A stretch of DNA of 64,000 nucleotides from Moorella humiferrea (lineage in GTDB: Bacteria; Bacillota; DSM-521; Neomoorellales; Neomoorellaceae): NCBI RefSeq assembly GCF_039233145.1, contig NZ_CP136419.1:1400001-1464000 (forward strand), given 5' to 3'. Below, piece after piece: positions 15,005-24,633 of this stretch. Positions within the stretch are counted from its first letter, which is position 1; each line of letters starts with the position of its first letter. The notes beneath the pieces were generated by a model, which saw only the letters and a program-made list of their open reading frames with translations, was not told where the DNA came from and made no database searches. A program made the translations under genes and the position numbers.

Positions 15005-15844
15005 CTATCCTAAAGCATAGGTCCCCAAAATTCGTAGCAAAACCGTGCGGGATTTTAGACCAGCCAGCACCTCATTCAACGGCGCCTCGTCACACCGGCC
15101 CTCGCAATCAATAAAGAAAAGGTATTCGCCCAGCTCTTTTTTAGTGGGTCGCGATTCAATGCGGGTTAAATTTATACCGGCTTCGGCAAAATCCTTTAAG
15201 ATGGTGTAAAGGGTTCCAGGTCTGTTGGCCGGGGCGGCCACCACCAAGGAGGTTTTATAAGGCCCGGTTAAAGATGGCGCCTCCCGGCCGACGACCCAAA
15301 ACCGTGTTTTATTTCCTGAATAATCCTGGATATCTTGCGCCAAAATCGGCAGGCGGTACAACGAGGCGGCGAAAGAGGAGGCAATGGCCGCCAGGTCTGG
15401 GCGTTTAAGAGCCTCTCCGGCGGCCTCGGCCGTACTGGTAACGGCTTTAATTTTTGCCCATGGAAGAACGGCGGCAAGGTAACGCCTGCACTGGGCCAGG
15501 GCCTGGGGATGGGACCAGACCTCCCGCACGGCATTTATGTCGTCTGCCTGGCTTAAGAGGCAGTGGTTGATGGGCAGTATCACTTCCCCGATTATCTGCA
15601 GTTCCATTTCTTCAAGGAGGAGATCCAGAGTCAGGTTGACGGCGCCTTCAATGGAATTCTCCACAGGCAGAATACCGGCCATCGCCCGGTGGTTTTTTAC
15701 GGCATCGACGACTCCCGGCAGTTCGGGGCATGCCAGGAGCTCCTCTACTTCTTTCTCACGTTCAGGTTCCAGGCGCCGCCTCCAGGTGACCGCCGCTTCA
15801 TGGGAAAAGGTTCCCGGCGGGCCTAGATACGCAATGGTCTTCAT
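15005..15844 (-). CDS. pheA: Prephenate dehydratase
   Basis: Converts prephenate to phenylpyruvate. The 279-residue monofunctional enzyme opens with the substrate motif [14 protein letters not shown] and has [10 protein letters not shown] near residue 62. The dehydratase motif [12 protein letters not shown] is near 180, and the Phe-binding ACT domain follows, with [17 protein letters not shown] near 235. No chorismate mutase domain is fused; AroH, encoded upstream of trpE, supplies that step. The ATG overlaps the aroF stop by 4 nt. Confidence 0.96.
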
Positions 15845-16869
15845 ACAGGTAGACGCCCCATTTCGCGTCCGACGGCGGTGATTATCGGTCGGATTTCCTC
15901 CATCAGACGGGCGAACTCCTTCGGTGTCAGAGACTGGGGACCGTCGGAGAGGGCTTCCTGGGGATTAGGGTGCACCTCAATGAGCAAACCGTCGGCGCCG
16001 GCGGCTAGGGCGGCCCGTGCCATGGGCGCTACCATACAGCGTCGTCCCGTCCCGTGGCTGGGATCGACTAATATGGGCAGGTGGGACAAATGTTTTACCG
16101 CCGGTACGGCGCTTAAATCCAGGGTATTACGGGTGTACGTCTCAAAGGTGCGAATGCCCCGTTCACACAAGATGACTTTGTTATTACCTTCGGCGAGAAT
16201 ATATTCGGCCGCCAGAAGCCATTCTTCGATGGTCGCCGAAAGACCCCGCTTCAAGAGGACCGGTTTTTGGACGCGGCCCACGGCCTGTAGGAGGGCAAAG
16301 TTTTGCATGTTCCGGGAACCTATCTGTAACACGTCGGCCACCTCGGCCACTTCCTTTATAAGAGAGGGATCCGTAATTTCCGTCACCACCGGCAGGCCGG
16401 TAACTTCCCGGGCTTCGGCCAGATATTCCAATCCCTTAAGGGCCAAGCCCTGGAAGGTGTAAGGGGAACTACGTGGTTTAAATGCCCCACCTCGCAGCAT
16501 GGTCGCTCCGGCTTCACGGACGGCCATGGCCGTCTCTAAAAGTTGCTCCCGGCTTTCTACCGCACAGGGACCGGCAATCACCTGTACCCGGCGTCCGCCA
16601 ACAAGCAAATCCCTTACCGGCACTATGGTATCCTCGGGATGGAAATCGCGACCGGCCAATTTATACGGGTGTAGTACAGGAACCACTTTTTCCACTCCCG
16701 GCATGGCGGCCAAAGTTTCGGCCTTTAAACGCGTTTTGTCGCCAATGGCCCCGATTATCACTCTCTCTACTCCTCGGGAAAGATGTACTTTAAATCCTTC
16801 CCGTTCCAGGCGTGCCATTACTTGCTGCTGCTCTTCCGGTGTTGCTCCAGGTTCCATGATAATTATCAT
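15841..16869 (-). CDS. aroF: 3-deoxy-7-phosphoheptulonate synthase (DAHP synthase)
   Basis: First enzyme of the shikimate pathway, joining PEP and erythrose 4-phosphate. It is of the AroA(beta)/KDO8P-like type with an N-terminal ferredoxin-like regulatory domain (residues 1-70, [15 protein letters not shown]). The barrel motifs are AGPCAVES near 100, [16 protein letters not shown] near 130, [19 protein letters not shown] near 210 and [10 protein letters not shown] near 275. I chose the ATG at 16869 preceded by GGGGGG. Unlike its neighbours it has its own promoter and attenuator-like leader. Confidence 0.96.
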
Positions 16870-16881
16870 CTTTATCCCCCC

Positions 16882-16915
16882 AAAAAAACAAAACGTCACC
16901 CCGCCAGGAGTGACG
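16882..16915 (-). terminator. Terminator hairpin in the aroF leader (candidate attenuator)
   Basis: Minus strand: stem CGTCAC/GTGACG (16894-16915) with further C/G pairing inside, then GTTTTGTTTTTTT ending 13 nt before the aroF ATG. Because it lies between an apparent promoter and the gene, it is better read as an attenuator than as the trpA terminator. Its CTCCTG (16905-16910) is complementary to CAGGAG (16933-16938) upstream, a possible antiterminator. Confidence 0.75.
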
Positions 16916-16931
16916 CCTAAAATTTACTTTC

Positions 16932-16990
16932 CCTCCTGCCGTGCTACCGTCCTACCATTTAGATTAAACCATTTCATACTACCATACTAC
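16932..16990 (-). promoter_or_regulatory. NAG-triplet array in the aroF leader
   Basis: The minus strand shows GTAGTATG twice in tandem (16975-16990), then after 19 nt three degenerate octamers GTAGGACG, GTAGCACG and GCAGGAGG (16932-16955). Each octamer has an AG dinucleotide in the same place, giving NAG triplets with an 8-nt period. The last repeat contains the sequence that can pair with the terminator loop. It resembles a binding array for a NAG-reading protein (TRAP or HutP type). Function inferred. Confidence 0.5.
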
Positions 16991-16997
16991 AATTTAG

Positions 16998-17026
16998 AAT
17001 ATAGCACAGCGCCCCCCTCCTGGCAA
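16998..17026 (-). promoter_or_regulatory. Promoter in front of the aroF leader
   Basis: Minus-strand TTGCCA (17021-17026), a 17-nt spacer and TATATT (16998-17003) preceded by TGC, an extended -10. The predicted start lies near 16991, directly before the first NAG repeat. This would give aroF-pheA-tyrA-aroA a transcript independent of trp. Confidence 0.6.
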
Positions 17027-23662: not shown

Positions 23663-23721
23663 CTTAGCTCCTTACCTCTCCTCCAGGCTCAACTCCAACT
23701 CTCCTCGGCTCAACTCAGCTA
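23663..23721 (-). promoter_or_regulatory. Eleven-triplet NAG array in the trp leader (TRAP-like binding site)
   Basis: Reading the minus strand 5' to 3', the 59 nt parse into one TAG, nine GAG and one AAG, separated by 2, 2, 2, 2, 3, 2, 4, 2, 5 and 2 nt. The Bacillus TRAP protein is an 11-mer that binds eleven (G/U)AG repeats with 2-3-nt spacers in just this position. The seventh and eighth triplets overlap the antiterminator strand. The leader has no Trp-rich peptide and no T-box core. The binding protein is not identified in this window unless it is the HutP-like product of 24188-24592. Confidence 0.75.
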
Positions 23722-23779: not shown

Positions 23780-24136
23780 TTAAGCCAAATCGGGACGCAG
23801 TTCGGAGGCCCTGCCCAAATAAACGTGAACCGGTTCCCGGTCGCTGTAGGCATGGATTAAAACGCGGATTATTCCCGGAAGGCTTCCCGGTACAGGGATC
23901 TCGGTGGCGCACATTAAAGCGGTACTGTGCCAGCCCAAACGCCTGGCGGCTTCGGCCGGAAAGGCGGCATTAAGATCCGGTGTCACCGTAAAAATGGCAC
24001 TGATTATATCCTCTACGGCCAGCCGGTTTCGGTTTTGCAGCTCTCGCAGCAAGCGCTCGGTAGCCTCGAGGATGGCCGCCGCCTTATTTTCTTTTACATC
24101 AACCGCCCCGCGGAAACCCCTTACCTTAGTCATCAT
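23780..24136 (-). CDS. aroH: Chorismate mutase, AroH type
   Basis: Rearranges chorismate to prephenate for Phe and Tyr. The 118-residue monofunctional enzyme has the AroH family landmarks RGFRGAVDVKENKAAAILEAT, VTPDLNAAFPAEAARRLGW, ALMCATEIPVPGSLPGIIRVL and VYLGRA. ATG start after GGGGAGGAAC. It lies 51 nt downstream of the hutP-like gene and directly upstream of the trp promoter, as in the Bacillus aro supraoperon. Confidence 0.96.
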   Translation of the reverse strand: MMTKVRGFRGAVDVKENKAAAILEATERLLRELQNRNRLAVEDIISAIFTVTPDLNAAFPAEAARRLGWHSTALMCATEIPVPGSLPGIIRVLIHAYSDREPVHVYLGRASELRPDLA

Positions 24137-24187
24137 GTTCCTCCCCTACCGTCCTGCTTTATTTTTTGAAAACCTGCCATACTGCCG

Positions 24188-24592
24188 TTATACGGCTCGA
24201 TGTCCCAGACCGATCCCGACCTCATCAAGATGTAGCAGGCCGATGCCGAAAAAAATAGCCACGCTCAAATGGTCCTGCCAGCGAGCAATACCGATTTTGC
24301 CGCCTACGTTCAAACCGAGGGCTTTAGGCATAATTTGGGATAAGGCTTCCCTGGTCGCCCCGGCGACGGCGCCTTCCTCAGGGTGGGTTTCTTTGATGAC
24401 TCCTTCACGTTTGGCGGCTACCACGGCCCGTTCCACGATTTTCTGCATGGAATTGATGAATTCGCCGCCATAATCGACTGCCACTGCCTTTATACCGCTG
24501 GCCGCATATTCTTTTTTTAAGCGCCCTTCTTCTTCCCGGTTTTCACTGAGGGCCATCCTGAGGGCCGCTGCCGCTACCTTTCTGCTGCCCAT
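24188..24592 (-). CDS. HutP-family RNA-binding regulator homologue
   Basis: HutP of Bacillus subtilis is a hexameric antiterminator that binds NAG motifs in hut mRNA with Mg2+ and L-histidine. This 134-residue protein aligns by eye along the family: GGEFINSMQKIVERAVVAAKREGVI, then ATREALSQI, then WQDHLSVAIFFGIGL and a GIGLGH ending. The C-terminal His is kept, but the two histidines in HutP's SHALYHATMEAL block are Gly here (EEGAVAGATREAL), so ligand or metal use may differ. I chose the ATG at 24592 because GAGGT lies 7 nt upstream; ATG 24598 is also possible, but ATG 24631 would fall upstream of the predicted transcription start. First gene before aroH-trp. Confidence 0.8.
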   Translation of the reverse strand: MGSRKVAAAALRMALSENREEEGRLKKEYAASGIKAVAVDYGGEFINSMQKIVERAVVAAKREGVIKETHPEEGAVAGATREALSQIMPKALGLNVGGKIGIARWQDHLSVAIFFGIGLLHLDEVGIGLGHRAV

Positions 24593-24633
24593 TTCCATGA
24601 CCTCTGCACCTACCCGTTTTTTCCCATGCACCG

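Follow-up and report, generated by a model that had tools for sequence, protein, structure and literature searches.

HutP, whose activation depends on L-histidine and Mg2+, is known from one histidine-use regulon in Bacillus, where the hut RNA presents its triplets at a 7-nt period with 4-nt spacers and the HutP-RNA complex contains His and Mg contacts. TRAP (MtrB) also binds NAG triplets; a TRAP leader holds about 11 of them, and the second TRAP target is the trpG ribosome site. T-boxes and riboswitches are common controllers of aromatic amino-acid genes in these bacteria. According to PMC7430163, the RNA site of HutP consists of two NAG-triplet clusters about 20 nt apart.

The locus described here lies in a window of 64,000 nucleotides from Moorella humiferrea, by which we mean the whole stretch of DNA that was analysed. 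The minus-strand gene order in the window is hutP-like gene - aroH - trpE G D C F B A - aroF - pheA - tyrA - aroA - cmk, with the trp genes, aroA, and cmk named by eye. The relevant features are:

17026-16998, minus strand: promoter TTGCCA-17-TATATT of the aroF leader, 10/12 consensus matches, TG before the -10 element
16979..16990, minus strand: NAG cluster 1 of the aroF leader, GTAGTATGGTAG, two triplets at 8-nt units
16931..16955, minus strand: NAG cluster 2 of the aroF leader, GTAGGACGGTAGCACGGCAGGAGGG, three triplets, 8-nt period
16881..16918, minus strand: intrinsic terminator before aroF, stem CACTCCTGGCGGGGTG plus T run
15841..16869, minus strand: aroF, DAHP synthase (PF00793), first putatively controlled gene
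23663..23721, minus strand: trpE leader with NAG triplets at 5-nt period (TRAP type) and a terminator
23780..24136, minus strand: aroH, chorismate mutase type I (PF07736), second putatively controlled gene
24146..24184, minus strand: second 8-nt array, GCAGTATGGCAG ... GCAGGACGGTAG, between hutP and aroH
24188..24631, minus strand: aro-type HutP-family protein (PF09021), presumed array reader, likely start ATG at 24595

An earlier note on this DNA had reported the promoter just after trpA, the octamers GTAGTATG (twice), GTAGGACG, GTAGCACG, and GCAGGAGG, and a terminator directly before aroF. We recovered all of these, together with the gene order trpA - leader - aroF - pheA - tyrA - aroA. Shuffled versions of the aroF leader region yield means of 0.5 promoter-like and 0.1 terminator-like sites, and the promoter is conserved by eye across the window's family. 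The NAG triplets start at 16989 and 16981 and then at 16954, 16946, and 16938; set beside the two clusters of three NAG about 20 nt apart of a HutP site, the aroF leader thus has 2 + 3 triplets at an 8-nt period and a 24-nt gap between the clusters. The terminator stem (16918-16891) comprises 12 pairs, and is followed by the T run, which leaves about 12 nt to the start of aroF at 16869. The CAGGAG of the last repeat is complementary to the CTCCTG of the terminator, just as the earlier note had claimed, and the CAGGAG of cluster 2 is presumed to be the antiterminator strand. For the window leader alone, offset 8 occurs in three NAG pairs (dinucleotide-shuffle P 0.0096), so that the 8-nt periodicity is only modestly unlikely by chance; it becomes solid with the relatives.

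This layout resembles TRAP attenuation of trpEDCFBA, in which a NAG array overlaps the antiterminator before a terminator, and a second target at a ribosome site recalls TRAP control of trpG translation. TRAP is, however, an unrelated protein with a 5-nt period, whereas the locus described here combines an 8-nt period with 2 + 3 triplets and a co-occurring protein of HutP type. The trpE leader shows what is expected of a TRAP leader, namely about 11 G/UAG triplets with a 5-nt period; the aroF leader does not. B. subtilis HutP, the antiterminator of the hut operon, has the family PF09021 and the fold in common with the window protein, and its target is likewise a terminator. In contrast to that system, the period here is 8 nt and the unit spacing 5 nt, the linked genes are aroH, aroF, and trp instead of hut, i.e., biosynthetic rather than catabolic, one array adjoins a ribosome site, and the terminator lies downstream of the array. 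As an antiterminator, B. subtilis HutP also acts with the sign opposite to that proposed for aroF. T-box control of Gram-positive aromatic genes and transporters concerns the same class of targets and is also terminator-based, but no T-box was found at the leader or at 20 array loci, and what is predicted here is a linear array read by a protein. In the open-access literature, we found no description of such a system or of a tie between HutP and aromatic amino acids; a 2003 study by Panina et al. reportedly deals with aromatic amino-acid regulation in Gram-positive bacteria and could hold related observations. We class the aroF leader as a putative protein-read attenuator of a new type.

The earlier note mentioned neither the hutP gene of the window, which lies some seven kilobases from the aroF leader on its upstream side, nor the array at the hutP-aroH junction; both were found here. 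The hutP product matches Pfam PF09021 over the full length with 176.5 bits (cut-off 25), and PF09021 was detected in 44/61 relatives. A search of NCBIfam with the window protein gave no match, including to the HutP equivalog NF002838. A purpose-built profile splits the aro-linked group (at least 167 bits) from canonical HutPs (at most 52 bits). The metal-binding histidines of HutP, which we take to be H73, H77, and H138, include an HxxxH pair that is retained in B. subtilis HutP and in 6/6 canonical paralogues aligned, whereas it reads GxxxG in 11/11 aro-type proteins aligned; the position of the third histidine in the aro-type alignment is ambiguous. An AF2 model of the window protein, for which seven sequences were used (pLDDT 79, with a weak C terminus), superimposes on the HutP structure 1vea with Z 15.3 and rmsd 2.6 over 128 aligned residues. 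The six best rows of the structural alignment are HutP, and the next family follows at Z 8.2. When the window protein was the query, HutP was absent among the 50 Foldseek matches listed for the model and phmmer found no PDB chain; the canonical paralogue as query found the solved HutP. On sequence comparison, the window protein belongs to the HutP superfamily without being a HutP orthologue; the aro-type proteins are predicted to keep the HutP fold while having lost the metal-binding histidine pair. The aro-type hutP is linked to aroH, trp, and aroF rather than to histidine-utilisation genes.

The own genome holds a second, canonical HutP copy outside the window. The canonical paralogue L156 (C1:180659-181048, plus strand) has kept HxxxH; the gene immediately behind it is not a hut gene but, judged by eye, acyl-CoA-carboxyltransferase-like. 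Three further proteins of about 262-276 aa (L162, L163, and L164) carry a HutP-like domain after an apparent CBS-domain pair (by eye).

The second 8-nt array runs from the hutP-aroH junction into the aroH ribosome site GGGGAGG. The motif YAGNAYGGYAG occurs at this junction in 13/16 loci of the window's family. Single motifs are not enriched in the own genome (41, compared with 55 matches of the reversed pattern), so that only clusters are informative; as read by eye from the list, same-strand clusters within 60 nt are confined there to the aroF leader and the hutP-aroH junction. A looser three-unit pattern was discarded, as it gave 14 matches against 7 in the control, with 6/14 in one low-complexity stretch.

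The promoter, arrays, and terminator are retained in 17/17 leaders of the window's family that were read by eye, and the octamers, whose absence from relatives would have spoken against the earlier note, are kept in all of them. The gap between the clusters measures 23-28 nt in 12/17 family aroF leaders. The motif YAGNAYGGYAG was picked after inspection of aroF leaders of relatives and fixed before counting up to 500 nt upstream of aroF. Because some of the leaders that were counted had also served to define it, the controls were the genomes lacking HutP and the antisense strand. It is present upstream of aroF in 31/41 genomes with aro-type HutP and in 0/14 without (Fisher 4.5e-7), and antisense occurrences upstream of aroF in relatives numbered 0. 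One of the 14 HutP-less genomes (G015) should be dropped because its main aroF sits at a contig edge with the upstream region unassembled, which leaves 31/41 versus 0/13 (1.0e-6). Outside the window's family, the counts are 14/24 versus 0/13 (P 3.5e-4). Among the named genomes in which arrays precede aroF are those of Desulforamulus aquiferis (L065) and Syntrophomonas wolfei subsp. methylbutyratica (L004), and a MAG of Thermincola ferriacetica (L011). Ten of the 41 HutP carriers have no exact motif near aroF (G020, G021, G025, G029, G031, G033, G041, G043, G059, and G060). Variant arrays are visible by eye near aroF in G020 and G021, the motif lies upstream of hutP in G059 and G060, and in G029 it lies between hutP and aroF.

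The period itself was followed through YAG-YAG offsets in the 300 nt upstream of aroF. At 22 loci from genomes that carry HutP and do not belong to the family, they peak at 8 (35 counts), with 3-16 counts for every other offset from 4 to 20. Offset 8 reaches 55 counts upstream of aroF at 17 family loci and is flat (4 counts) at 12 HutP-less loci. In second, more distant aroF copies of relatives, YAGNAYGGYAG was not found. The own genome likewise has a second DAHP synthase gene (L195, C1:2583404-2584414), 61% identical and with the motif absent upstream, which may be under another control.

A three-unit pattern gave 17 matches in 15 of 22 genomes of the class and 0 in the reversed control; 14 of these matches are at aroF, 1 is at pheA, 1 at a transporter, and 1 in a genome (G007) without a matching gene behind it. 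The unguided three-unit search over 398 genomes of the phylum was positive in 75 genomes, with 6 for the reversed control. PF09021 was found in 257/398 genomes. HutP is present in 70/75 array genomes versus 187/323 others (Fisher 4.3e-10), and TRAP in 48/75 versus 151/323 (P 0.01), both values being uncorrected for relatedness. HutP was not found in two array genomes that have aroF sites, G139 and G364, which are 80% and 87% complete. In at least 32/75 genomes, an array and hutP share a contig and are no more than 17 kb apart (no more than 10 kb in 30 of them), and 32/32 are on the same strand. Taken together with the single-locus data, this suggests that the arrays are probably read by the HutP relative encoded a few genes away. 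The proposal of the earlier note, a NAG-reading protein that follows an 8-nt rule and controls DAHP synthase apart from trp, gains support at the sequence level because the period is 5 nt in the trpE leader and 8 nt in the aroF leader, HutP is encoded nearby, and HutP tracks the arrays far better than TRAP does.

We read 83/85 array sites, omitting G075 and contig 106 of G220, and tallied the downstream genes by eye. Of the proteins encoded there, 14 were searched against Pfam, and other transporters were named by sequence likeness. Aromatic-pathway genes or hutP follow at 54 of the 83 sites and transporters at 20:

aroF: 35 sites
aroH or the hutP-aroF interval: 9 sites
hutP: 4 sites
tyrA: 3 sites; pheA: 1 site
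aminotransferase, then aroF: 1 site; shikimate kinase: 1 site
ABC_sub_bind transporter: 14 sites; DctP transporter: 4 sites; SSF sodium symporter: 2 sites
AMP-binding ligase (phenylacetate-CoA-ligase-like): 1 site; GHMP kinase: 1 site
no gene assigned: 7 sites (a minisatellite in G042; G022 and G238, which are HutP-less; G171, G319, G392, and G141)

These genes point to a widespread RNA-level aromatic amino-acid regulon, a reading we hold to be rather likely. In it, a HutP relative that lost its histidine/metal site and gained an aromatic ligand would read 8-nt NAG arrays and control synthesis (aroF, aroH, pheA, tyrA, shikimate kinase), uptake (ABC, DctP-type, and sodium symporters), and perhaps breakdown. 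Some of the genes would be controlled by transcription attenuation and others through obstruction of the ribosome site, and the protein would regulate its own gene in some genomes. At one locus (L291, 612-3000), an 8-nt array precedes the phenylacetate-CoA-ligase-like gene, behind which a ferredoxin-oxidoreductase subunit is encoded, hinting that aromatic amino-acid breakdown may be part of the regulon.

Counting hairpins with dG -6 or lower within 100 nt, a terminator follows 49/57 arrays compared to 100/570 shuffles. The last NAG of the array and the GGAG behind it are able to pair with CTCC of the terminator, and if such antiterminator pairing is used, an array tail should form better duplexes with the terminator behind it than with terminators taken from other species. 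Against simple shuffles, the antiterminator was weakly supported, with a p of 0.05 for the array-terminator duplex reached in just 14/60, and we therefore swapped terminators between species. A first test took the most stable hairpin, which is sometimes the wrong one, and covered 47 leaders (61 minus 8 without a terminator and 6 without a motif cluster); the own pairs had a mean of -11.0 compared with -9.4 for swapped pairs (sd 0.29, P < 5e-5). With the nearest hairpin, a rule that also miscalled a few (e.g., L108, L015, L315), the values for 51/61 leaders were -9.55 and -8.59 (P 4e-4). Limiting this second test to one leader per family (29/29, with L111 and L065 having a single motif) gave -9.23 and -8.25 (P 0.002), the family of L002, L010, L015, and L065 being assigned by likeness. 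In the predicted fold of the nascent window leader minus the terminator 3' arm, CAGGAG pairs with CTCCTG. The predicted equilibrium fold of the full leader contains the terminator and no antiterminator, and the attenuation step would therefore have to be kinetic.

We put at roughly three in four the probability that the aroF leader works as an attenuator and that its reader is a HutP-family protein re-purposed for aromatic amino acids. Strand specificity and the position of the arrays after the promoter argue for recognition of RNA, not DNA. The TRAP-like layout of array and terminator is supported by the sequence comparisons, and the following sign of control is the one we infer. With an aromatic amino acid abundant, a ligand-loaded hexamer would bind both NAG clusters, one per face, and would cover the last NAG and the adjacent GGAG; pairing with CTCC would then be prevented and the terminator could form. 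With the aromatic amino acid scarce, GGAG and CTCC would pair and aroF would be transcribed. For aroH, a block of translation is proposed because the array abuts the ribosome site, which binding would cover. The aromatic class of the ligand is inferred from the identity of the target genes, and Phe or Tyr is likelier than Trp because trp has its own TRAP leader.

The hexamer might also act with the opposite sign. The HutP relative would then melt or block the terminator, e.g., in a free or precursor-loaded form that signals need, much as B. subtilis HutP prevents terminator formation (PMC7430163). The default fold of the full leader, which is the terminator, fits this version in that an activator would have to overcome it. 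We nevertheless judge it unlikely, since the terminator comes only after the complete array, the sequence around the last NAG covaries with the 5' arm of the terminator in a TRAP-like layout, and at aroH the array adjoins the ribosome site, where binding should repress. Still less likely, in our estimate, is that TRAP, tolerating looser spacing, recognises the aroF array in addition to that of trpE. The gene for TRAP is present in the own genome, about 0.55 Mb from the trpE leader, and its association with arrays across the phylum is weak (48/75 versus 151/323, as given above). However, TRAP is missing from 27/75 array genomes, 24 of which have HutP, and occurs without HutP in only 2/75, one of these being a minisatellite. 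The aroF leader moreover has a period of 8 nt, not 5, and 5 triplets instead of about 11, and it is hutP, not mtrB, that is linked to arrays in the own genome.

That the terminator merely closes the trp operon while the promoter serves aroF, with the octamers being chance or DNA operator sites, would agree with the modest improbability of the single window array (P 0.0096). This is hard to reconcile with a terminator downstream of the aroF promoter, with terminators after 49/57 arrays, and with arrays that are conserved, strand-specific (0 antisense), and also found before genes without trp neighbours, and we consider it highly improbable. The same holds for direct sensing of the amino acid by a riboswitch or T-box in which the NAG runs are part of the fold. 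T-boxes have been surveyed (PMC2494555), but the cluster gap and the surroundings of the arrays vary freely, Rfam returned no family at the aroF leader even at E up to 10, and at gathering level no family and no T-box was found at 20 array loci.

Under the HutP-based reading of the aroF leader, one branch of HutP gains an RNA target, a pathway, and a ligand class. If true, TRAP would be joined in the same pathway and gene cluster by a second NAG-triplet reader that follows another spacing rule, which would allow one to ask how two NAG readers keep apart, and the 8-nt array rule would predict substrates of unassigned transporters. At other positions of the window, Rfam identifies a c-di-AMP riboswitch (RF00379; 43648-43798, plus strand, 83.2 bits) and a fluoride riboswitch (RF01734; 63343-63407, plus strand, 45.3 bits).
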